Assembly: GCA_004563715.1 (NCBI GenBank)
Contig: SIRX01000115.1
Span: 1-39,121 of the forward strand
Reading direction: 5' to 3'
Length of the DNA: 39,121 nt
Origin: Actinomycetota bacterium
Lineage (GTDB): Bacteria > Actinomycetota > Rubrobacteria > Rubrobacterales > Rubrobacteraceae
Below, piece after piece: positions 3,273 through 28,295 of the stretch. The notes under the pieces were generated by a model. The model had not been told where the DNA came from. It searched no databases and saw only the letters and a list, made by a program, of their open reading frames with translations. How positions within the stretch are numbered: position 1 is the stretch's first letter; each line of letters starts with the position of its first letter. The position numbers and the translations under genes were made by a program.

Positions 3273-3959
3273 CTAGACAGCGCCCGCGCCGGCCTCGCGG
3301 GCCGCCGGACCGAGCGGGTCTTGGCGCGTCGGGAGACCCAAGACGACGGGCAGCAGGTGCTCAGAGAATTCCTCGTAAAGCCTTCTCAGCTCGGCTACCG
3401 CGTCCCCGGCGTGGTCTACCCGCAGGTCCCACAGAGGGTACTCCTCGGTGTCCAGTATCGTTATATTCGAGGAGATGGCGCCCTCCTTATCTGCGCCGGT
3501 CGCCTCCCCAGCCTCCAGGGCTCGCAGCAGGCGCTCGACCAGATCCTCACCCTCTGTACTGTAGAAGGTGTCGACTACCGCCTCCAGAGTTTCAGGGCCG
3601 ACAAGCCTGTTGCCCTGCGCCGAATAGCCCTCGCCGTTGAGATGGCCGGACCAATCTGGCGTACGGGAGCCGGTCCAGGCCTCCGAGTTCCCGGCGAGGT
3701 CTACCATGCCACACTGCCGGAGGTCCCGGCCCGGGTCCCTGGACACGAGCAAGCTCAAGGTCTCCTGGGCGCTCTCGCCGTCAGACATCATGCGTAACCC
3801 ATCGTAACCGTAGTAGGGGTTCATCGTGGCCTGGGTCGCCACGGCCCCCACTCCGGCCTGCGCGTGACACACGAGCTTACCAACCCCCCGCATCGCGGTT
3901 ACCGCGCCTACTCCTACCTGCCCCGTACGGGCACAACGAGCTACCAACGAGAACGTCAT
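3273..3959 (-). CDS. DUF1028 family protein (Ntn-hydrolase-like)
   Basis: A 228-residue protein beginning MTFSLVARCARTGQVGVGAV, with AQAGVGAVATQATMNPYYG, DPGRDLRQCGMVD and GYSAQGNRLVG following in order. This is the characteristic series of the DUF1028 family, which has the N-terminal nucleophile hydrolase fold and no firmly known substrate. I start at the ATG at 3959 because the family begins there and GGAGG lies four bases upstream; the frame continues 32 codons further without family similarity. Cys residues at several positions are not typical of the family. It lies alone, with 241 bases before the pilC end upstream. The last 30 residues are an Ala/Gly-rich tail. Confidence 0.85.
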   Translation of the reverse strand: MTFSLVARCARTGQVGVGAVTAMRGVGKLVCHAQAGVGAVATQATMNPYYGYDGLRMMSDGESAQETLSLLVSRDPGRDLRQCGMVDLAGNSEAWTGSRTPDWSGHLNGEGYSAQGNRLVGPETLEAVVDTFYSTEGEDLVERLLRALEAGEATGADKEGAISSNITILDTEEYPLWDLRVDHAGDAVAELRRLYEEFSEHLLPVVLGLPTRQDPLGPAAREAGAGAV

Positions 3960-16488: not shown

Positions 16489-17952
16489 CTACGAACCCGT
16501 CCGCGCCACGATACCCCCGCCAACGACCCGCTCCCCGTCGGCGGTGTAGAACACGGCCGACTGGCCCGGCGCCACCCGGGAGGTAGGCTGTTCGAGGCGC
16601 GCGACCCAGTAGCCATCCCCCGCATCCCGCAACGTGCATGGCACCGGAAGGCTGTTGTACCGCACCTGAACCATGCTCGCTTCACCCGGGTCCAGAAACC
16701 AGTTCATCACCCCGACCCGGACCTCCGTGACCTCCAGGTCCTCGCGCCGCCCGACGACGACCTGCCGGCTCTGCGGCCGCACCTCGGTGACGTAGAGCGG
16801 GGTGGGCGCGGCGATACCCAAACCCTTGCGCTGGCCAATGGTGTAGTCCACGACGCCCGAGTGGAGGCCCAGCGTCCGGCCCTCCCCGTCCACGATCTCG
16901 CCGGGCTCCGTCGCGACCTTTTTGCGGACGAACTTCCGGTAGTCGCCGTCCGGGATAAAGCAGATGTCCTGGCTCTCGGGCGTGTAGGCGACGGCCAGCC
17001 CGCGGGCCTCGGCGATCCGGCGCACCTCGCTCTTGCGGTAGTCCCCGAGCGGGAACACCGTGCGCGCGAGCAGCTCCTTCGGCATGGGCCAGAGCACGTA
17101 GGTCTGGTCCTTGGATGCGTCTTCGGGACGCGCCAGGCTCGGGCCGTCGGCGATCCGGGCGTAGTGGCCCGTGGCGACCTGGTGGAAGCCGAGCCGGTCG
17201 GCCAGGAACGCCGCCGCGTGGAACTTGACGTGTGCGTTGCACGCCACACACGGGTTCGGCGTCCGGCCCGCCGCGTAGGAGCCGACGAAGTCCCGCATGA
17301 CGCGCCGGTTGAAGAGCTCCTTGAGGTTGAGCGTGAAGTGCGGCAGGCCCATCCGGTGCGCCGTGTCGCGGGCGAAGAGCACCGTGTCCGGCGAGCAGCA
17401 CGACCGGCTCCCCTTCTCCCCGTCGTGCAGCCGGAAGGTGACCGCGGCCACCTCGTAGCCGGCCTCCCTGAGCAGCAGGGCCGTCACCGCCGAGTCCACC
17501 CCGCCGCTCATCGCCGCCACGACGGTTTTACCCCGCGCCGCACCGTTGCCGGCGTACCCGCCGTCCGCCAGCAGCGCCTCGACGTTCCGGTTCCAGTAGT
17601 CCTCGATGGCTTTGTGCAGGGCGTCGAGGGTCAGCGTGAGCGCGTGCTCCTTGCCGGGCGGGAGCGGACCGCCCAGAGCGCCTTCCAGGTCGGCGAGAGA
17701 GACGCGGGCCGCCTCCAGAAGCGGCCGGCCGTCCACCAGCTCCGCCAGCGCCGAGCCCGCCGCGATGCAAGCCGCGCAGCCGTAGACCTTGTAGCGGACC
17801 GTTCGGAGTACGTTGTCCTCTATCCTCGCCGTAAAACGGGCCACGTCCCCGCAGGCCTCGTGGCCCGACTCCCCGACGCCGTCGGGTTCCGGCACCTCTC
17901 CCACGCACCGGGGACGCACGAGATGGTCTATTACCTCTGATCTGTAAGACAA
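16489..17952 (-). CDS. mnmA: IscU-like scaffold fused to tRNA 2-thiouridylase MnmA
   Basis: A 487-residue fusion. Residues 1-125 are an IscU/NifU N-domain: HEACGDV with Cys34 and Asp36, YGCAACIA with Cys59, but the third ligand Cys is replaced by Ala104 (EHALTL). Residues 142-487 are MnmA, which makes the 2-thiouridine at position 34 of several tRNAs: P-loop MSGGVDSAV (148-156), NPCVACNAHVKF with Cys235, and SQDICFIPDGDY with Cys331, the thiol pair that carries the persulfide. TTG start at 17952, 14 bases after the cysteine desulfurase stop. The neighbour probably feeds sulfur directly into this protein; the Cys loss suggests relay rather than cluster assembly. Confidence 0.92.
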   Translation of the reverse strand: MSYRSEVIDHLVRPRCVGEVPEPDGVGESGHEACGDVARFTARIEDNVLRTVRYKVYGCAACIAAGSALAELVDGRPLLEAARVSLADLEGALGGPLPPGKEHALTLTLDALHKAIEDYWNRNVEALLADGGYAGNGAARGKTVVAAMSGGVDSAVTALLLREAGYEVAAVTFRLHDGEKGSRSCCSPDTVLFARDTAHRMGLPHFTLNLKELFNRRVMRDFVGSYAAGRTPNPCVACNAHVKFHAAAFLADRLGFHQVATGHYARIADGPSLARPEDASKDQTYVLWPMPKELLARTVFPLGDYRKSEVRRIAEARGLAVAYTPESQDICFIPDGDYRKFVRKKVATEPGEIVDGEGRTLGLHSGVVDYTIGQRKGLGIAAPTPLYVTEVRPQSRQVVVGRREDLEVTEVRVGVMNWFLDPGEASMVQVRYNSLPVPCTLRDAGDGYWVARLEQPTSRVAPGQSAVFYTADGERVVGGGIVARTGS

Positions 17953-17966
17953 AGCTCCGACCTTTT

Positions 17967-19145
17967 CTAACTGCTGGCGTACAGGGGCGAGACACGCCGG
18001 AGTTGCTCGACGGCCGCGGAGAAAGCCTCCAAAAAGCCCTCGACCTCATCGGCGGTGTTTTCTTTGCCGACCGTGATCCTGACCGCCGAAAACGCCTCGC
18101 GCTCGTCCCGGCTCATCGCCAGCAAGACCGGCGACGCCTTGTGACCGGTCGCCGCCGAAGCGCACGCCGATCCGCTGCCTATAGCGTACCCCCGGGCGTC
18201 GCACAGGAGCACCAGCCCCTCGGCCTCGACACCCTCGACCGAGACGTGGACGTTGTTCGAAAGCCGCTTCTCCCGGTGGCCGTTGAGGCGGACGCCGGGG
18301 ATGGAAGCCAGGCCGGAAATCAGGGTTTCCCGCAGCTCCCGCTCGTGCCGGGCCCGCTCTTCGAGCTCTTCCCGCGCCAGCCGGGCAGCGGCCCCGAAGC
18401 CCACGATCCCGGACACGTTCTGGGTTCCGCTCCGCAGGCCTCTCTCCTGGCCGCCGCCTCGCAGTACGGGCTCCACACGCACCCCGTCCCGTACGTACAG
18501 CGCGCCAACCCCCTGCGGGCCGTAGAGCTTGTGGGCCGAGAGGGCGAGCGTCGAAACCGGGGTCTCTGTCTCTGCGACGTCTATCGGGAGCCGGCCGGCG
18601 GCCTGTACCGCGTCGGCGTGGAACGGCACGGCTCGCTCCGCGCACACCTCCGCCAGCTCCCCTACCGGCTGGACCGTACCGACCTCGTTGTTGGCCCACA
18701 CCACGGCGGCCAGGGCCGTGTCCGGGCGCAGGGCTTTCTCCAGGTCCTCCGGCGAGACCATCCCCGCCTCGTCCACGCCGAGCCACGTCACCTCGCAGCC
18801 GGAGGATTCCAGGCATCGGGCTGCTTCCCGGACGGCGGCGTGCTCGACGCCGGAGACCACCACGTGACGCCGGTCTCCGCAGGCCCGGGCCAACCCGAGA
18901 ACGGCCAGGTTGTCTGCCTCCGTGCCGCTAGCGGTAAAGATTATCTCTTCCGGTGCCGCCCCGACGAGGTCCGCGACGGACCAGCGGGCCTCTTCTACGG
19001 CCTCCCGGGCGGCGACGCCCGCCGCGTGCAACGACGAGGGGTTGCCCCGGGGACCGTAGAGGTGCGGCAGCATCGCCTCCAGAACCCGGGGGTCGAGCGG
19101 CGTAGTGGCGGCGTTGTCCAGGTAAACGGCGTCGGCATCCAGCAT
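17967..19145 (-). CDS. iscS: Cysteine desulfurase (IscS/NifS type)
   Basis: A 392-residue PLP enzyme that takes sulfur from cysteine as a protein persulfide. It has YLDNAATTPLDP at the N-terminus, SGTEADNLAVLG, the PLP Lys in LSAHKLYGPQGVG, RSGTQN, and the mobile catalytic Cys in AIGSGSACASAATGHKASPVL. It directly precedes the IscU-MnmA fusion, so tRNA thiolation is its obvious client; cluster assembly is also possible. ATG at 19145 without a Shine-Dalgarno sequence, nine bases after a -10-like TAAACT. Confidence 0.94.
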   Translation of the reverse strand: MLDADAVYLDNAATTPLDPRVLEAMLPHLYGPRGNPSSLHAAGVAAREAVEEARWSVADLVGAAPEEIIFTASGTEADNLAVLGLARACGDRRHVVVSGVEHAAVREAARCLESSGCEVTWLGVDEAGMVSPEDLEKALRPDTALAAVVWANNEVGTVQPVGELAEVCAERAVPFHADAVQAAGRLPIDVAETETPVSTLALSAHKLYGPQGVGALYVRDGVRVEPVLRGGGQERGLRSGTQNVSGIVGFGAAARLAREELEERARHERELRETLISGLASIPGVRLNGHREKRLSNNVHVSVEGVEAEGLVLLCDARGYAIGSGSACASAATGHKASPVLLAMSRDEREAFSAVRITVGKENTADEVEGFLEAFSAAVEQLRRVSPLYASS

Positions 19146-20344: not shown

Positions 20345-20411
20345 ACTCCGCACTTACCCTAACATGCGTACCAGCGGACAGGTTACATCTTACTCGAGAG
20401 GAGTCCCGACC

Positions 20412-22196
20412 TTGGCCGGAAAAAGCTCGCCCGAACCCAACCCCTACCGAACCCACACCAACGGCGAGTTGCGCGCCGGCAACGTCGGCGAGCTCGTGCG
20501 GCTCGCCGGGTGGGTAAACCGGCGCCGCGACCACGGTGGCCTCATCTTTATAGACCTGCGCGACCGCTGGGGGATAACCCAGGTTACCTTCGACCCGGAG
20601 CGGCGGGAGGTCTTCGCCGCGTCCGAGAAGCTCCGGCCCGAGTGGTCCGTCGCGATCGAGGGGGAGGTCGTGCGGCGGCCCGCGGGCAACGAGAACCCGG
20701 ACCTGCCGACCGGCGAGGTCGAGGTCGAGTCCACCACCCTGACCGTCCTCAACCCCTCCGAGACGCCCCCGTTCGAGATCGACCGGGAGCGGCCGGTGGA
20801 AGAGCTGTTGCGACTCAGGTACCGTTACCTGGACCTGCGGCGCGAGAGGATGAAGGAGAACATCCTGCTGCGTCACCGGGTAATCAAGTACATGCGCGAC
20901 TACCTGGACGAGCGCGGTTTCGTGGAGATAGAGACCCCCCTGCTCACCGCCTCGACCCCCGAGGGCGCCCGCGACTACCTGGTGCCGAGCCGCCTCTACC
21001 CCGGGCAGTTCTACGCCCTGCCGCAATCGCCCCAGCAGTTCAAGCAGCTCCTCATGGTCGCGGGCTTCGAGCGGTACTTCCAGATCGCCCGCGCCCTCCG
21101 AGACGAGGACCAGCGCGGTGATAGGCAGCCGGAGCACACCCAGCTCGACCTGGAGATGAGCTACACCACCCAGGACGAGGTGCTCGACCTCGTCGAGGGA
21201 CTCTACGTAGAGATCGTCGAGAAGCTCACCGACAAGAGGCTCCTCACAAAGCCCTTCCCGCGTCTGACCTACGCCGAGGCAATGGCCCGCTTCGGCACCG
21301 ACAAGCCGGACCTCCGCTTCGGCCTGGAGATCAAGGACGTTACGGAGACGGCCCGGGAGTCGGGGTTCAAGGTTTTCCGCTCGGTGGTGGAGGCCGGCGG
21401 CTCCGTCCGGGGGCTCGCTGTCGGCGATCTCGGCAACCTCTCGCGCCGGGAGACGGACGAGCTGACCGCCGTCGCGGCCGAGGGCGGCGCAAGGGGCCTT
21501 GCCTTCTTCAAGGTGGAGGAGGACGCACTGTCGGGCCCCATCGCCAAGTTCTTCTCCGAGGACGAGCAACGGGCGCTGTGGGAGGTTCTGGAGGCAAAGC
21601 CGGGAGACTACATGTTCTTCGTTGCGGACAAGGACCCGGTGGTCTTCGAGAGCCTGAACCGGTTGCGGCTGCACCTCCGGGACCGGCTGGGGCTCGCGGA
21701 GAAAGACACCCTGGCTTTCTGCTGGGTCACGGACTTCCCGCTCTTCGAGTGGAACGAGGACGAGCGGCGCATAGAGCCGATGCACCACATGTTCACCATG
21801 CCCCGCGAGGAGGACCTGCCGCTGCTGGACAGCGACCCGCTCAAGGTCGTCGGCCAGCTCTACGACCTAGTCGCCAACGGCACGGAGCTCGCGTCGGGGA
21901 GCATCAGGATCCACCGCCCGGAGCTCCAGCAGAAGGTGTTCTCGACCATCGGCATCGGGCCGGAGGAGGCCGAGCGGCGCTTCGGGGCCATACTGCACGC
22001 CTTCCGCTACGGCGCGCCGCCCCACGGCGGCATCGCGCCGGGTATTGACCGCCTGATCATGGTGCTGCGCGACGAGCCGAACATCCGGGAGGTGATGGCC
22101 TTCCCGAAGACCCAGGCCGCCCGCGACGAGATGATGGACGCCCCCGGTCCCGTAACCGAGGAGCAGCTCAGGGAGCTGCACCTCCGGCTCCGGTAG
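20412..22196 (+). CDS. aspS: Aspartyl-tRNA synthetase
   Basis: A bacterial-type class II AspRS. An N-terminal OB-fold anticodon domain has LAGWVNRRRDHGGLIFIDLRDRWG. The catalytic core has LRYRYLDLRRERM, FVEIETPLLTASTPEGARDYLVP, and FQIARALRDEDQRGDRQPEHTQLD (motif 2). A GAD insertion domain follows at about 290-400, and motif 3 is HGGIAPGIDRLIMVL. I choose TTG at 20412 (594 residues) because GAGAGGAG at 20396-20403 precedes it by eight bases; an ATG 48 bases upstream has no ribosome-binding site. Whether it is discriminating or also charges tRNA-Asn cannot be decided here. The 3' end overlaps the opposite gene by 29 bases. Confidence 0.96.
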   Translation: MAGKSSPEPNPYRTHTNGELRAGNVGELVRLAGWVNRRRDHGGLIFIDLRDRWGITQVTFDPERREVFAASEKLRPEWSVAIEGEVVRRPAGNENPDLPTGEVEVESTTLTVLNPSETPPFEIDRERPVEELLRLRYRYLDLRRERMKENILLRHRVIKYMRDYLDERGFVEIETPLLTASTPEGARDYLVPSRLYPGQFYALPQSPQQFKQLLMVAGFERYFQIARALRDEDQRGDRQPEHTQLDLEMSYTTQDEVLDLVEGLYVEIVEKLTDKRLLTKPFPRLTYAEAMARFGTDKPDLRFGLEIKDVTETARESGFKVFRSVVEAGGSVRGLAVGDLGNLSRRETDELTAVAAEGGARGLAFFKVEEDALSGPIAKFFSEDEQRALWEVLEAKPGDYMFFVADKDPVVFESLNRLRLHLRDRLGLAEKDTLAFCWVTDFPLFEWNEDERRIEPMHHMFTMPREEDLPLLDSDPLKVVGQLYDLVANGTELASGSIRIHRPELQQKVFSTIGIGPEEAERRFGAILHAFRYGAPPHGGIAPGIDRLIMVLRDEPNIREVMAFPKTQAARDEMMDAPGPVTEEQLRELHLRLR

Positions 22197-22503: not shown

Positions 22504-22542
22504 GGGGAACCTCGTCGGGGTCGTGGTCTACCTGCGGGAAAG

Positions 22543-22571
22543 AATATAGTCACCCCCGGCGAACGCCGCAA
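22543..22571 (-). promoter_or_regulatory. Promoter of the ABM-like gene
   Basis: On the minus strand TTGCGG (22566-22571), exactly 17 bases, then TATATT (22543-22548). Both spacing and hexamers fit a housekeeping promoter. The start codon lies 40 bases downstream of the -10. Confidence 0.5.
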
Positions 22572-22622
22572 CACCCTCAATGCCGGTCAGCGAAGATCAC
22601 CGTATGACAAGCTACAGCTATC

Positions 22623-22649
22623 TTGTCCGGGATAGACTAGGTGTATTAT
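22623..22649 (+). promoter_or_regulatory. Weak promoter candidate of the five-gene sugar operon
   Basis: TTGTCC (22623-22628) and TATTAT (22644-22649) lie 15 bases apart, somewhat short; taking ATTATG as the -10 gives 16. The first gene of the operon would start about 90 bases downstream. The leader in between shows no recognised regulatory element. Confidence 0.3.
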
Positions 22650-22738
22650 GTACGCGGTTTCTGGGTACTTATAGCGGGCCACGCGAGGCGCCCGTATTCG
22701 GGACCGCGTGTGCCACGGATGGAAGACGAGTTCGTAGA

Positions 22739-23401
22739 ATGGAGAGCGTGGGATCGGGTCGTCAACACGAGGCGAAGAACGGCTACCGGCGGGCGGCCGC
22801 CGCGTCCGAGGGCCACGTCTCGCTGACCTTTGACGACGGCCCCGACCCGGTGTGGACGCCGCGCGTGCTGGAGGAGCTGAGCCGGGTCCGGGCGCGGGCC
22901 ACGTTCTTCGTCGTCACACCCCGCGCGCGCCGGTACCCGGCCCTGATCCACGAGATGCTCGACTCCGGGCACGGCGTCGAGCTCCACTGCGCCGAGCACG
23001 TGCGCCACACGGAACAAACCCGCGAAGAGGTTGAGGCCGACGCCCGGTCTGGGCTGAAAGACCTGCGCGCTTTGGGCGTGCGGGCTCGATTGTGGCGGAC
23101 ACCGTGGGGCGTGACCACCCCCGCAACGCTCGGGGTTGCGGAACGGCTAGGCCTGGACCTGGTTCCCTGGACCGCCGACACCCACGACTGGCGCGGGGAC
23201 CGGGCCGTCGAGATGCTGCAGAAGGTGAAACCGTTGCTGAGCCCCGGCGCCGTGGTGCTGATGCACGACGGTCTCGGCCCTGGTGCCCGGCGTCCGGGCT
23301 GCAAGGAAACGGTCGCACTCATAAAGCCGCTAGTCGAAGCTGTTCGAGACCGGGGCTGCGAGCCGGCGCCGGTCACCGCGGCCCGGAAGGTTCCGGCTTG
23401 A
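22739..23401 (+). CDS. NodB-type polysaccharide/sugar deacetylase
   Basis: A compact 220-residue NodB-homology domain. The metal and catalytic motifs are all present: SLTFDDGPDP (residues about 27-36), HCAEH for the His pair, RTPWG, TADTHDWRGD, and VVLMHDGLG. The family removes N-acetyl groups from chitin-like or other N-acetylated sugars. There is no signal peptide or anchor, so it probably acts in the cytoplasm on a small substrate rather than on cell wall. The start is uncertain: ATG at 22739 lacks a strong ribosome-binding site, and the frame is open 159 bases further upstream. The stop overlaps the TTG of the next gene (TTGA). First gene of a five-gene coupled operon. Confidence 0.85.
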   Translation: MESVGSGRQHEAKNGYRRAAAASEGHVSLTFDDGPDPVWTPRVLEELSRVRARATFFVVTPRARRYPALIHEMLDSGHGVELHCAEHVRHTEQTREEVEADARSGLKDLRALGVRARLWRTPWGVTTPATLGVAERLGLDLVPWTADTHDWRGDRAVEMLQKVKPLLSPGAVVLMHDGLGPGARRPGCKETVALIKPLVEAVRDRGCEPAPVTAARKVPA

Positions 23402-24522
23402 CGGCCACCGGCCACGCCACAACCGGGGCACCGAGCCTCACCGCGGTCCTGGCCCGGACCTCAGCGGGCGCCGCCGACCGCGACGCGCGCCCCGGTTTTC
23501 CGCGCGAACCGTTCCGGGAGCTCGCAGCAGCCGGCATCCTGGGCCTGCCGGTGCCGGACCCGGTCGCGGAGGGCGGCCGGCGCGCGACCTTTGCCGAGGA
23601 GTGGAGTACCCTGCGATCCGTCGCCGAGGCCGACGGCTCCGTTGGCCGCGTCCTGGACGGCCACTTCAACGCCGTCGAACGGGTCTCGCTGCTCGCGCCC
23701 GAGCCGCTGCGCTCCCGGGAGCTGGAAGCGGCCGCCGCCGGTGAGCTGTGGCTCGGCGTGTGGGGCGCGGACCCCATACCGGGCGAGGGACCACCGGCCC
23801 GGCTGGTAGATACCTCCCGCGGCCCGGCGGTCGAGGGCGTCAAGACCTTCTGCTCCGGCGCGGGCGGACTCCACCGGGCGCTGGTGCTCGTCCGGGGTCC
23901 AAAGCCCGGACCGCCGCTGCTCGTCTACCTGGACCTCTCCGAGGGCGTCGAGGTGGACCGGACCTGGTATCGGGCTGCGGGGATGCGGTCCTCGGAGAGC
24001 CACCGGGTCATATTCCGCGGGACGCCGGTTCTGGCGGTGCTCGGAGAGCCGGGCGAGCTAGTACGCGAGCCTTACTTCAGCCGCGACGCGATCCGCACGG
24101 CGGTCTGCTGGGCCGGGATAGCGGACGCCGCGGTGGCCGCCGCCCTGGAGGTCCTGGCGGCCAAGAGCGGCGGCCGGGAGCCGGACGACGTCGTCTCGCT
24201 CGCGGCGGGCCGGATGCTCACCGCCCGGCAGACGATGGACCGCTGGATCGGGTACGCCGCCAGCCGGGCCGACGCCGACCCTCGCGCCTCGCTAGCCTCC
24301 TTCGCCGTACACTTGCGCGTGTCGGTAGCTGAAGCGTGCCGGGCGATCCTGGACGAGGCCGCCCGGGCCTGCGGCTCGCACCCGTTCGCCACCGCCGGGA
24401 AGCTCGACCGCGCCCGCCGCGACCTGGAGCTTTTCCTGCTCCAGCACCGGCTGGAACCGGCTCTCGTGCGGGCCGGGCAGGCGGAGATCGGCCGTTTCCA
24501 CGAGAGGGACGCGCGCCCGTGA
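23398..24522 (+). CDS. Acyl-CoA-dehydrogenase-like flavoprotein
   Basis: A 374-residue protein with the acyl-CoA dehydrogenase fold: an N-terminal helical part (FRELAAAGILGLPVPDPVAEGG), a middle beta domain (about 115-200, GELWLGVWGADP, VEGVKTFCSGAGG), and a C-terminal four-helix domain ending with RARRDLELFLLQHRLEPALVRAG. The middle part replaces the usual FAD-binding sequence by GVKTFCSGAGGLHRALV. I see no clear catalytic Glu of true dehydrogenases, so it could instead be one of the flavin-dependent monooxygenases with this fold. TTG at 23398, GGAAGG seven bases upstream, overlaps the deacetylase stop; the frame is open far upstream but that is inside the deacetylase gene. Confidence 0.75.
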   Translation: MTATGHATTGAPSLTAVLARTSAGAADRDARPGFPREPFRELAAAGILGLPVPDPVAEGGRRATFAEEWSTLRSVAEADGSVGRVLDGHFNAVERVSLLAPEPLRSRELEAAAAGELWLGVWGADPIPGEGPPARLVDTSRGPAVEGVKTFCSGAGGLHRALVLVRGPKPGPPLLVYLDLSEGVEVDRTWYRAAGMRSSESHRVIFRGTPVLAVLGEPGELVREPYFSRDAIRTAVCWAGIADAAVAAALEVLAAKSGGREPDDVVSLAAGRMLTARQTMDRWIGYAASRADADPRASLASFAVHLRVSVAEACRAILDEAARACGSHPFATAGKLDRARRDLELFLLQHRLEPALVRAGQAEIGRFHERDARP

Positions 24523-25094
24523 GGGAGCGCCTCACCCGCGAGTACTTCGAGAAGCTCTACGCGGAGTCTCCCGACCCGTGGGAGTTCGAGACGAGCGCTT
24601 ACGAGCGCCGCAAGTACGGGCGGACGCTGGACGTTCTGAGAGGCCGCCGGTTCCGGCGGGCGCTGGAGGTCGGCGCCTCCATCGGCGTCTTCTCCGAGAT
24701 GCTCGCCCCGCAGTGTGAGGAGTTGCTCGCCGTGGACACCTCCAGGCGGGCCGTGGAGATCGCCCGGGAGCGGCTCTCGCGTTACCCTCACGCCCGCGTC
24801 GAGCGGCGGACGCTCCCCGAGGAGATGCCCCACGGGTCTTTTGACCTGATCCTGGCCTCCGAAGTCTTGTACTATCTGCCACAGGAGGTGATGTTGCTCA
24901 CCCTCCGGCGTATGGAGGAGCACCTCGTACCCGGCGGCGTACTGCTCGCCGTCCACTGGCGCAAGGAGACCCGCACCTACCCCTTGCAGGGCGACGAGGT
25001 GCACGAGTTGTTGCGAGAGAACACGCGACTTACGAACACGGAGACTATTTTGGAACCAGAGTACAGGCTCGACCTTTTCGAGGATCAACCATGA
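24519..25094 (+). CDS. NodS-like SAM-dependent methyltransferase
   Basis: A 191-residue class I methyltransferase. EYFEKLYAESPDPWEFETSAYERRKY at the N-terminus and the SAM motif ALEVGASIGVFSEMLA (about residue 45-60) match the NodS family. LAVDTSRRAVEIARERL gives the acidic residue for the ribose, and LILASEVLYYLP is the post-motif region. In rhizobia NodS N-methylates the deacetylated amino group of chito-oligosaccharides; here the substrate is unknown. GTG at 24519 overlaps the upstream stop (GTGA) and its own stop overlaps the next ATG. Co-occurrence with a NodB-type deacetylase supports action on an exposed sugar amine. Confidence 0.85.
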   Translation: MRERLTREYFEKLYAESPDPWEFETSAYERRKYGRTLDVLRGRRFRRALEVGASIGVFSEMLAPQCEELLAVDTSRRAVEIARERLSRYPHARVERRTLPEEMPHGSFDLILASEVLYYLPQEVMLLTLRRMEEHLVPGGVLLAVHWRKETRTYPLQGDEVHELLRENTRLTNTETILEPEYRLDLFEDQP

Positions 25095-26266
25095 ACCGGG
25101 ACGGACACCTGCTCATCGTCGGCGGCGGACCGGCGGGCCTCTCGACGGCCCAGGCATACCGGGAGGCCGGCGGCGAGGGCCGGGTTACCATGCTGACCGC
25201 CGAAGCACACCCGCCATACCGGCGCCCGCCGCTCACCAAGGAGTACCTCCGCGGCGAGATCCCGGGCGACGAGCTACGCATGCAGGACGACTCCTGGTTT
25301 AGAGAGAACGGGGTTACGCTGCGGCTTTCTACGGCCGTGTCATCCCTGAACCCGGGAGAGATGTCCGCAGAGCTCGAGGGCGGGGAGCGGCTCTACTTCG
25401 ACGCCTGTGTTCTCGCGACGGGCTCGGAGCCGCTCCGGCTGCCCGTGCCGGGGGCCGACGACCCCGAGGTCTTGCTGATGCGGACCATCAAAGACTCGGA
25501 GCGGCTCCGGGAGCGCGTCTCCGCCGGCACCCGCGCAGTCGTCGTCGGCTCGGGGTTTATCGGGTGCGAGGCCGCGGCCTCGCTCTCCCTGCGCGGCGCG
25601 GAAGTCACCATGATCAGCCTCGAAAACACCCCGCAGGAAGAACGCCTCGGCGAAAAGGTCGGCGGACACATCCTCTCCTGGATAGAGGCCTACGGCGTGA
25701 AGACCCGCTTCGGCGCGCCCCTGTCGGAGATCGAGCCCGACAACGGCGGTTACCTCGTGAAAGTCGAAGACGACGACCCGGTAGCCGCCGACACGGTGCT
25801 GTTGGGGACCGGCGTGAAGCCGCGCACCCGGCTCGCGGAGGAGGCGGGCCTGGAGGTGGCCGAGGGCGGCATAGTCGCCGACTCCTCGATGCGGACCAGC
25901 GCGCCGGGGGTCTTCGCGGTCGGAGACATCTCCTACGCCCACAACGAGGCCGCCGGCCGGCCGCTGCACGTGGAGCACTGGGGCGAGGCCCTGAACCACG
26001 GCCGGGTTGCCGGCACGGTGCTCGCGGGCGGCGTGGCGGCGTGGGACGTGGCCCCGGGCTTCTGGTCCACGATCGGCGCCTACACGCTGAAGTACGTGGC
26101 GTGGGGGGAGGATTGGGACGACGCCCACTTTACGGACCACGGCGGCGGGGCATTCACCGTCCACTACGGCCTGGAGGGTGTCTGCGTCGGCGTGCTGACG
26201 CACGAGCGCGACGAGGACTACGAGCGAGGCCGGGAGCTGGTCGAATCAGGGGCCCCGCTGCCTTGA
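25091..26266 (+). CDS. FAD-dependent NAD(P)H oxidoreductase (ferredoxin-reductase type)
   Basis: A 391-residue pyridine nucleotide-disulfide oxidoreductase fold. The FAD motif LIVGGGPAGLSTAQAYREAG lies near the N-terminus, PYRRPPLTKEYLRGE follows, then the NAD(P) motif VVVGSGFIGCEAAASLSLRG near residue 150, VLLGTGVKPRT, and FAVGDISYAHNE for the flavin tail. The C-terminal region (FWSTIGAYTLKYVAWG) matches the reductase domain of rubredoxin/ferredoxin reductases. No redox Cys pair is present, so it should pass electrons to another carrier or flavoprotein; the acyl-CoA-dehydrogenase-like protein in the same operon is a candidate. Overlaps both neighbours by four bases. Confidence 0.88.
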   Translation: MNRDGHLLIVGGGPAGLSTAQAYREAGGEGRVTMLTAEAHPPYRRPPLTKEYLRGEIPGDELRMQDDSWFRENGVTLRLSTAVSSLNPGEMSAELEGGERLYFDACVLATGSEPLRLPVPGADDPEVLLMRTIKDSERLRERVSAGTRAVVVGSGFIGCEAAASLSLRGAEVTMISLENTPQEERLGEKVGGHILSWIEAYGVKTRFGAPLSEIEPDNGGYLVKVEDDDPVAADTVLLGTGVKPRTRLAEEAGLEVAEGGIVADSSMRTSAPGVFAVGDISYAHNEAAGRPLHVEHWGEALNHGRVAGTVLAGGVAAWDVAPGFWSTIGAYTLKYVAWGEDWDDAHFTDHGGGAFTVHYGLEGVCVGVLTHERDEDYERGRELVESGAPLP

Positions 26267-27936
26267 GGCGCCTGCCCCCGCCGAGCCCGGAGCTCCGGGT
26301 CTCCGTAGTCGTGCCGGCGAGAAACGAAGAAGCCCTGGTAGGCGCCTGCCTGGAGGCGCTCGCCGCCCAGGAAGGCGTCCCGCACGAAGAGTACGAGGTG
26401 CTGCTCGTTCTCGACGCCTGTACGGACGCCACCGAGGCCCGCGCCCGGGAAGCGGGCGCGGCTCACCCGTCGCTCCGGCTCTACTTTCTGGACGGCCCGG
26501 GAAAAGGAGCGGGCCACGCCCGGCGCGCGGGCATGGAAGCCGCTTGCGCCCGCCTCCGGAGCCTGCCGGTCCCTGGGGGGCTTATAGCCTCGACCGACGC
26601 GGACACCGTCGTGATGCCCGACTGGCTGGCCGCACAACTGCGGTGCGCCGCCGGCGGGGCGCGGGCGATCGGCGGCCGGATCGAGCTGGCCGGAGAGGAG
26701 CACCTCCCTGACGGCGTCTCTACCTGGCGTCTGGACCAGGGACGCCAGAGACATCGCGGCCTCCTCGAGAGCCCGGCGAACGGCCGCATACCGGAACACT
26801 GGCAGTTCAGCGGCGCGTCGCTCGCGCTCACGGCCGACCTCTACGAGGAGATCGGGGGCCTGGAACCCCGCGCGGCCCTGGAGGACGAGTACCTGGAAAG
26901 AGTGCTCCACCAGCGCGGCATAAACATAGAACGCCCGCTGGCCGTGCGGGTCCGGACCTCGGCCCGCCTCGAAGGCCGGGCGGAGCGAGGCCTCGCCAGG
27001 GACCTGGCCCTGGCCTCCTGGTACCGCCGCAACACCTACACAACTTTTCACGGCGATGTTTCAGGAGTTGGCAAAGACCCTCTGCCCGGTGTAAGCCTGG
27101 TGCTGCCGGTGGAAGAAGAGCCCGGTCCGGGCCTGCTGCACGAGCTAGAAGACCTCCGCGCATCGGGCGTGGTCGACGAGGCAATTGTAGTTGGTGTTTT
27201 GGAGCATCCCGGTAGTTCGCCGCCGGGGGTGACGGTGTATTCGGGGGGCGAGTTGATGCCGCGCTTCGGCCCGGTGCGGGGATACGGGGATGCTCTGTGG
27301 CGCGGCGTCTCTGCGTCTCGGGGGGAGTTGGTGGTCTCGGTCGAACCCGGTCTCCCCGGCTCCCTCGCAAACCGGGTGCGTAGTCTTCTATGCCCCCTGC
27401 TGGAGCGGGAGGAACTTTCCCTGGTAAAAGGCTTCCACTCACCCCGGGACCCGGTTTCAGACCTGGTGGCCCGGCCCTTGATCAACCTGTATCGTCCTGA
27501 ACTCGCGGGCCTGGTGGAACCGCTCTCCTTGAACCTGGCGGCCCGGCGTTCGCTTCTCGAAGAGCTCTCTTTCCCCGTTGGCCCCGGAGCACGCCTGAGC
27601 CTCGTGCTGGACACCGCTGACCGGCAAGGAGCGAAGGGGATCGCCCAAGTATACCTCGGCGAGAAGCGGTGCGGCGCGGAGGGAGAATCGGCGTCCGGCT
27701 ACACACAGGAAGTGGCCTACGCCGTGCTCTGCGCGGCGGCGACCCGGTTTCCGGGCGGCGGCGCTGAGGGAGGTGTCGTGCCGGGACCGCTCTTTGTTCC
27801 GGAGGCGGCAGAACTCGGCGTTCGACGCGTGTCGCTCGAAGAGCGCCCGCCGCTAAAAAATTCCCGGCCGCCGGCTACGGAGATCCGCAACCGGCAGTCG
27901 AGGCATGGGGACGTTCAGGCTTTCTCTTCCCGGTAG
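26263..27936 (+). CDS. Two-domain glycosyltransferase: active GT2 plus degenerate GpgS-like domain
   Basis: A 557-residue fusion. Residues 10-265 are a family 2 glycosyltransferase: VSVVVPARNEEALV, GPGKGAGHARRAG, the metal motif TDADT (111-115), and WQFSGASLALT with ALEDEYL. Residues 274-490 follow glucosyl-3-phosphoglycerate synthase: VSLVLPV, GYGDALWRGV, LVKGFHSP, LVARPLINLYRPELAGLVEPLS, LVLDTADRQGAKGIAQVYLG. In it the metal motif is replaced by VEPGL (360-364) and the usual late His is absent, so it is probably inactive. No membrane segment, so cytoplasmic. TTG at 26263 overlaps the reductase stop. The C-terminal 50 residues look disordered, and the gene end overlaps the opposite gene by 22 bases. 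Confidence 0.82.
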   Translation: MRRLPPPSPELRVSVVVPARNEEALVGACLEALAAQEGVPHEEYEVLLVLDACTDATEARAREAGAAHPSLRLYFLDGPGKGAGHARRAGMEAACARLRSLPVPGGLIASTDADTVVMPDWLAAQLRCAAGGARAIGGRIELAGEEHLPDGVSTWRLDQGRQRHRGLLESPANGRIPEHWQFSGASLALTADLYEEIGGLEPRAALEDEYLERVLHQRGINIERPLAVRVRTSARLEGRAERGLARDLALASWYRRNTYTTFHGDVSGVGKDPLPGVSLVLPVEEEPGPGLLHELEDLRASGVVDEAIVVGVLEHPGSSPPGVTVYSGGELMPRFGPVRGYGDALWRGVSASRGELVVSVEPGLPGSLANRVRSLLCPLLEREELSLVKGFHSPRDPVSDLVARPLINLYRPELAGLVEPLSLNLAARRSLLEELSFPVGPGARLSLVLDTADRQGAKGIAQVYLGEKRCGAEGESASGYTQEVAYAVLCAAATRFPGGGAEGGVVPGPLFVPEAAELGVRRVSLEERPPLKNSRPPATEIRNRQSRHGDVQAFSSR

Positions 27937-28295
27937 TCCTGGATGTCTTCGTACAGGCTGTCTGGAAACGACAGTTCGTTGTAGACGTTGCAGGCGTCGG
28001 GGTCTTCGGGGTCAGGACAGATCTGGAAGTCCTGTTGCTCTTGCCAGCCGAGGATCTTCTCTCTCCGGGGCGGGTTGTATCCCTTATCTTCCACCTGCTC
28101 TACCAGGGCGCGGGCCTTCTGCTCGTCCGTATCTCCGTCACGGGCCAGAAGCTCGACCAGGTCTTTCTCTTCTACGAAGTACCGGGCGACCATTGCAAAC
28201 GTCAGCCTCCCGTAGTGGCCTATGTCTTCGCCGTCATCCAACGCGTCCAACAGGTGGCTCATCATCGGGCTCCGGCGCAAGTCTTCGACAGACAA
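27915..28295 (-). CDS. Small acidic protein of unknown function
   Basis: A 126-residue protein that I do not recognise. It is strongly acidic, predicted mainly helical at residues 1-85 (LRRSPMMSHLLDALDDGEDIGHYGRL, ARALVEQVEDKGY), and ends with a Cys-containing acidic segment (ICPDPEDPDACNVYNEL). No signal peptide or membrane segment. TTG start at 28295, with GAGAGGAG about seven bases upstream. Its end is antisense to the glycosyltransferase end. The codon pattern and ribosome-binding site support a real gene. Confidence 0.6.
   Translation of the reverse strand: MSVEDLRRSPMMSHLLDALDDGEDIGHYGRLTFAMVARYFVEEKDLVELLARDGDTDEQKARALVEQVEDKGYNPPRREKILGWQEQQDFQICPDPEDPDACNVYNELSFPDSLYEDIQDYREEKA

Follow-up and report, generated by a model that had tools for sequence, protein, structure and literature searches.

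Nod factor synthesis by NodC, NodB and NodS joins glycosyltransfer, N-deacetylation by a carbohydrate esterase family 4 (CE4) enzyme and N-methylation by a NodS-family enzyme. In mycothiol and bacillithiol synthesis (MshA–MshB, BshA–BshB), the first steps fall to a family 4 glycosyltransferase (GT4) and a PIG-L deacetylase that works on a small conjugate of GlcNAc, the kind of substrate on which PIG-L activity is established for MshB and BshB. The nitrososynthases or sugar N-oxygenases ORF36 (3mxl), KijD3 and DnmZ are monooxygenases with the acyl-CoA dehydrogenase (ACAD) fold that act on thymidine diphosphate (TDP)-amino-deoxysugars in antibiotic clusters. The DNA analyzed here, called the window, is a contig of 39,121 nucleotides (SIRX01000115.1, C107) from a 3.47 Mb genome of the Rubrobacteraceae, the family that includes Rubrobacter. 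At 22739–27936 it carries an operon for a CE4 deacetylase, an ACAD-like flavoenzyme, a NodS-like methyltransferase, a flavin adenine dinucleotide (FAD) reductase and a family 2 glycosyltransferase (GT2) with a GpgS-like C-terminal half. We read this operon as the form found in Rubrobacteria and Thermoleophilia of a widespread four-step pathway of amino-sugar tailoring, whose product would be a cytoplasmic protectant perhaps used under stress. We give this reading a probability of roughly 60%.

Unlike the Nod factor pathway, the operon has a GT2 that is not NodC, lacks NodA and adds two flavoenzymes; none of the five proteins matches the NodA acyltransferase in Pfam or NCBIfam. The deacetylase scores 123.7 bits against the curated NCBIfam cut-off of 240 bits for NodB. 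The methyltransferase passes the Pfam NodS cut-off, but scores 79.4 bits against the curated 300 bits for NodS (NF041650). Because these equivalog cut-offs are not reached, the likeness to NodB and NodS goes no further than the family. From mycothiol and bacillithiol synthesis the operon differs in having a GT2 for the GT4 MshA or BshA and a CE4 deacetylase for PIG-L, and in lacking a cysteine ligase and an acetyltransferase. The flavoenzyme shares with ORF36, KijD3 and DnmZ the ACAD fold, the monooxygenase type and an amino-sugar context at 21–25% identity, but the operon has no TDP-sugar pathway.

The same flavoenzyme, methyltransferase and GT2 occur with a PIG-L deacetylase in annotated clusters of Novosphingobium, Deinococcus and Sphingomonas, found by tblastn of plasmids with the ACAD-like protein as query. 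Such clusters had been mentioned in the sequence-only reading of this DNA, made before any search. The three clusters (Novosphingobium pHR1a, L058; Deinococcus NW-56, L061; Sphingomonas FARSPH, L062) carry orthologs of the adjacent GT2, flavoenzyme and methyltransferase genes of the window, with identities to PIG-L cluster orthologs of 29–38% (GT), 30–35% (ACAD-like) and 27–47% (methyltransferase). Compared with them, the window has a CE4 (NodB-type) deacetylase in the place of PIG-L, gains a flavin reductase and extends the GT2 by a GpgS-like tail; the only PIG-L match in the host genome is on another contig. A search of GTDB genomes with a single bait, the methyltransferase, followed, and we analyzed its best 80 loci. 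An ACAD-like gene was present in 79 of these and a GT2 gene in 75, while the deacetylase within 5 kb was PIG-L in 58 and CE4 in 13. The bait loci belong to Actinomycetota, Pseudomonadota, Bacteroidota, Cyanobacteriota, Thermomicrobiota and Verrucomicrobiota, and the plasmid search added Deinococcota. The co-occurrence on which the earlier proposal of a single pathway depended is thus seen: the genes for the GT2, the ACAD-like protein and the NodS-like enzyme are found together in seven phyla or more. The distances of four core genes co-vary (Spearman rho 0.62–0.80, compared with at most 0.16 in permutations), to which shared species history contributes. Some of the contigs are truncated, and a few placements of metagenome-assembled genomes look mis-binned. 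A contig labeled Actinobacteria carries a Sphingomonas-like cluster (L127), and a Rhodoferax metagenome-assembled genome falls among actinobacterial sequences (L142); either mis-binning or transfer would account for these. Lineages far apart repeatedly have, close to the cluster, a HAD-family hydrolase (L057:14262-14942, L092, L121, L134, L136, L137, L143, L197, L201, L213) that is possibly a phosphatase of the pathway.

The window deacetylase carries all five CE4 motifs (TFDDGP, HCAEH, RTPWG, DTHDW and LMHDG), and no signal peptide was evident in its sequence. PIG-L is the deacetylase almost everywhere, and NodB/CE4 is confined to one clade of Rubrobacteria and Thermoleophilia. In the tree of the ACAD-like proteins, the CE4-bearing loci (Rubrobacteraceae, Solirubrobacter and Paraconexibacter) form a single clade with a support of 100/100, and PIG-L-bearing loci fall on both sides of the midpoint root, which serves for drawing only. 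A search of 299 Thermoleophilia genomes gave 16 matches, mostly in the order CE4, ACAD-like, methyltransferase, reductase (in some) and GT2. Since the CE4 variant forms a clade of single origin amid PIG-L loci, CE4 is a replacement of PIG-L, as the sequence-only reading had guessed. Six Methylobacterium loci have no PIG-L beside the flavoenzyme. In each of the six genomes a cluster-type PIG-L, 64–77% identical, is encoded at another place; it is paired with a second methyltransferase in the four examined and also with an ACAD-like gene in M. ajmalii (L225). PIG-L and the NodS-like methyltransferase are one open reading frame (ORF) in nine loci (L080, L106, L112, L117, L120, L125, L132, L133, L140), a fusion seen in Microbacteriaceae, and this ties deacetylation and methylation together.

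The flavoenzyme had been labeled ACAD-like. The Pfam match to Acyl-CoA_dh_N stands, but in comparisons of sequence and fold the protein groups with flavin monooxygenases. In profile searches of the PDB, DszC, MsuC and 5z8t/5gj7 rank above true ACADs. A Foldseek search with the confident AlphaFold2 model (predicted local distance difference test, pLDDT, 90.9) ranks 37 flavin monooxygenases or close relatives ahead of any true ACAD, and they include the nitrososynthases DnmZ, ORF36 and KijD3. In an alignment of 21 sequences, the position that we take, from general knowledge of ACADs, to be that of the catalytic Glu reads H, P or S; His89 and Gln349 are invariant, and S153 is conserved. In fold, the flavoenzyme is thus of the group D type of flavin monooxygenases, with DszC, MsuC and the nitrososynthases as its nearest matches, and it does not have the catalytic Glu of acyl-CoA dehydrogenases. 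A review places ACAD-like enzymes in group D, including N-hydroxylases, and cites a sugar N-oxygenase (PMC6165268). Given the fold matches and the N-hydroxylases of group D, the flavoenzyme would most naturally be read as oxidizing a sugar amine once this is freed. The FAD reductase is an optional extra in the cluster.

The GT had been described as a fusion of GT2 and GpgS. Both domains are recognized, but the GpgS-like half no longer has the catalytic residues. It shares the domain fold and overall sequence of GpgS (GT81), and at 148.7 bits falls below the curated cut-off of 262 bits (PRK13915). The active site of GpgS from Mycobacterium tuberculosis comprises Lys114, Asp134, Asp136, Glu232 and His258 (PMC2581804). 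The window counterparts of the first four are Y, E, G and N, and that of His258 is gone. The eight fusions seen in Rubrobacteraceae all have a broken Asp-Lys-Glu triad and DXD metal site, and about a dozen relatives in the family have the GT2 half only. In Thermoleophilia, most loci have a GpgS domain on the GT2, and the fused or neighboring GpgS keeps the motifs GKGD, DXD, GGRVTEL and PLAGE, and mostly RQNRHQ. Judged by these residues, the GpgS half is non-catalytic in the window and intact in Thermoleophilia; the fusion was therefore probably ancestral to the CE4 clade and then decayed in Rubrobacteraceae. In the predicted structure of the whole fusion the C-terminal half has a pLDDT of about 30–40, and this model was not used for fold searches.

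The computations establish that the genes belong together, that the deacetylase was exchanged, that the flavoenzyme has a monooxygenase-type fold and that the GpgS half decayed. From this evidence we infer a donor sugar, an acceptor, an order of steps, a product with its physiology and the chemistry of each step; the making of a conjugate, exposure of an amine, methylation and oxidation proposed in the sequence-only reading would agree with the enzyme families. The GT2 would transfer an N-acetylamino sugar to a small acceptor, and the CE4 deacetylase, as a substitute for PIG-L, would take off the acetyl group. The NodS-like enzyme would N-methylate the freed amine. The ACAD-fold monooxygenase would oxidize the amine, most likely at the nitrogen atom in the manner of nitrososynthases, and would draw its electrons from the FAD reductase. 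In the ancestor of the CE4 clade, GpgS would have been fused to the GT2, which hints that the acceptor once was, or was derived from, glucosyl-3-phosphoglycerate. In Rubrobacteraceae the GpgS half is now a dead domain that is either kept or discarded.

The cluster is repeatedly flanked, in other phyla and some Thermoleophilia, by stress genes for a long catalase, Dps/ferritin and the LigD 3′-phosphoesterase domain, along with DJ-1/PfpI, DUF892, topoisomerase IB and short-chain dehydrogenases/reductases. Many of the flanking families that loci share turned out to be ORFs antisense to core genes, and only Pfam-confirmed families were used. Among 36 cluster-bearing genomes, three of the 21 above-cut-off long catalase matches lie by coordinates inside the 18.5 kb loci (L108, L122, L143), where approximately 0.07 would be expected by our own arithmetic, which treats the genomes as independent. 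Another long catalase stands beside the cluster on the Novosphingobium plasmid. These neighbors support a stress-protectant role and do not prove it. An exact EcfG-type motif (GGAAC-N-CGTT) lies about 50 bases upstream of the GT gene in three Ancylobacter loci (L083, L118, L136) and was not found at other alphaproteobacterial loci; it suggests general-stress sigma control at these three. A paper on the EcfG regulon of Sphingomonas melonis lists a glycosyltransferase group (#3506–3509) and nothing that identifies the cluster.

Within the family, an ortholog of the ACAD-like gene is present in about two thirds of 35 genomes, mostly at 64–74% identity over the matched stretch. The gene order is invariant among 23 relatives, in every locus long enough to see, and the 4-base overlap is kept at 69 of 84 measurable junctions, a count somewhat inflated by a choice of starts that favored overlapping ones. 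As 4-base overlaps are common in GC-rich operons, this conservation is a better test than the overlaps alone. Most copies adjoin aspS, several do not, and that of R. indicoceani is on a 170 kb plasmid; the operon therefore behaves as a unit. The ACAD-like gene is split in three genomes (G020, G023, G027), and a fourth (G026) retains an ACAD remnant without the reductase and GT genes. Complete genomes without the operon also exist (G008). The decaying loci, with a split ACAD-like gene or an ACAD remnant with the reductase and GT genes gone, are L053, L054, L051 and L056.

Three other explanations were weighed against amino-sugar tailoring. If the flavoenzyme were a true acyl-CoA or amine dehydrogenase, the pathway would make a lipid-linked or acylated glycoconjugate. 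The ACAD fold, the weak Pfam Acyl-CoA_dh matches and the true ACADs lower in the PDB list all fit such an enzyme, but monooxygenases come first in both comparisons, the catalytic Glu position reads otherwise beside the invariant His89 and Gln349, and the operon has no acyltransferase, acyl-CoA ligase or electron-transfer flavoprotein gene, so that we regard a dehydrogenase as quite unlikely. We likewise think it improbable that the operon tailors a cell-surface or intracellular polysaccharide instead of a small molecule. Chitin, peptidoglycan or xylan are the usual CE4 substrates, and some genomes have several extra glycosyltransferases near the GT2; against this, the deacetylase and the GT2 have no visible signal peptide or membrane segment, the counterpart of CE4 is PIG-L with its small GlcNAc conjugates, and no gene for an exporter or a polymerase is consistently kept with the cluster. 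A product derived from glucosylglycerate and made with GpgS, for which the Rubrobacter form would use a separate genomic GpgS, deserves more weight and is still doubtful. The Thermoleophilia fusion with intact GpgS motifs and the canonical GpgS elsewhere in the host genome (C52:41032-41988, 357.7 bits) are consistent with it. The PIG-L clusters of other phyla have no adjoining GpgS, and the rest of the operon was kept across Rubrobacteraceae while the GpgS domain died or was lost.

Several observations weigh against the amino-sugar tailoring pathway that we prefer. Many Rubrobacteraceae have no cluster or a broken copy, and the pathway is thus dispensable. The flavin reductase is missing from several Thermoleophilia loci, and the family to which the window reductase belongs usually feeds iron-sulfur proteins, not free flavin. 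A deacetylase is missing from the visible stretch of a few loci outside the CE4 clade (L076, L094), owing to contig ends or loss. The stress genes are neighbors outside Rubrobacteraceae; the neighbors in the window are aspS, hisS and relA.

The features of the operon are listed in Table 1. All ORFs were called mechanically. The five genes and four 4-base stop/start overlaps reported earlier are present in the sequence (TTGA, GTGA, ATGA and TTGA in gene order), with start codons TTG for the ACAD-like gene, GTG for the methyltransferase, ATG for the reductase and TTG for the GT. The family assignments made then hold at the Pfam level for all five proteins. A promoter scan of the upstream intergenic region found no sigma-70-like promoter.

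Table 1. Coordinates of the operon and its upstream region in the window.
Feature	Position	Strand	Evidence
Upstream intergenic region, location required for the operon promoter	22504..22738		Sequence reading, promoter scan
CE4 (NodB-type) polysaccharide deacetylase, 220 aa	22739..23401	+	Pfam PF01522 Polysacc_deac_1, E 1.4e-24; CE4 motifs; PDB CE4 relatives
ACAD-fold flavin-monooxygenase-type protein, 374 aa	23398..24522	+	Pfam Acyl-CoA_dh_N; PDB profile; AlphaFold2; Foldseek; residue columns
NodS-like S-adenosylmethionine methyltransferase, 191 aa	24519..25094	+	PF05401 NodS, 70.8 bits (cut-off 24); PDB 4isc, NodS 3ofj
FAD/NAD(P)H reductase of rubredoxin/putidaredoxin/ferredoxin reductase type, 391 aa	25091..26266	+	PF07992 Pyr_redox_2, E 7.4e-59; PDB 3fg2, 3lxd, 1q1r
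GT2 domain with DXD (TDAD) and LEDE, conserved half of the fusion	26263..27040	+	PF00535 Glycos_transf_2, E 6.6e-16; orthologous to GT2 of PIG-L clusters
GpgS (GT81)-like domain, degenerate	27041..27936	+	PRK13915 score; alignments

The operon is preceded by aspS (20364–22196, + strand) and followed by a convergent gene (27915–28295, − strand) that overlaps its end by 22 bases. This gene encodes a 126-residue protein without a Pfam match, which is kept at the same position in many relatives with 63–76% identity. Elsewhere in the window, a single ORF (16489–17952, − strand) encodes the tRNA thiolase MnmA (tRNA_Me_trans) behind an N-terminal NifU-like domain and directly adjoins a cysteine desulfurase gene (17967–19145). 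It may be a scaffold–thiolase fusion that channels sulfur to tRNA.

No published description of the cluster or its product was found in the open-access literature, a search that left most subscription papers outside, and the pathway is apparently bacterial-wide and undescribed. Because the enzymes recur in seven phyla or more, a metabolite made by many bacteria may have escaped notice. Two unrelated families with N-acetyl-sugar deacetylation in common occupy one slot, and this swap pins one chemical step. The GT2–GpgS fusion of Thermoleophilia is a concrete clue to the acceptor, and a role in stress is suggested by the catalase, Dps and LigD genes next to the cluster. We advance more tentatively, as a somewhat unlikely extension, that a single N-methylated, N-oxidized amino-sugar metabolite (a hydroxylamine, nitroso or nitrone sugar made by a nitrososynthase-like enzyme) would serve in the stress defense of many phyla of exposed bacteria that tolerate desiccation and radiation. 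Thermoleophilia would then build it on glucosylglycerate through a bifunctional GT2–GpgS, and Rubrobacter would have kept the pathway after that half of the enzyme died.

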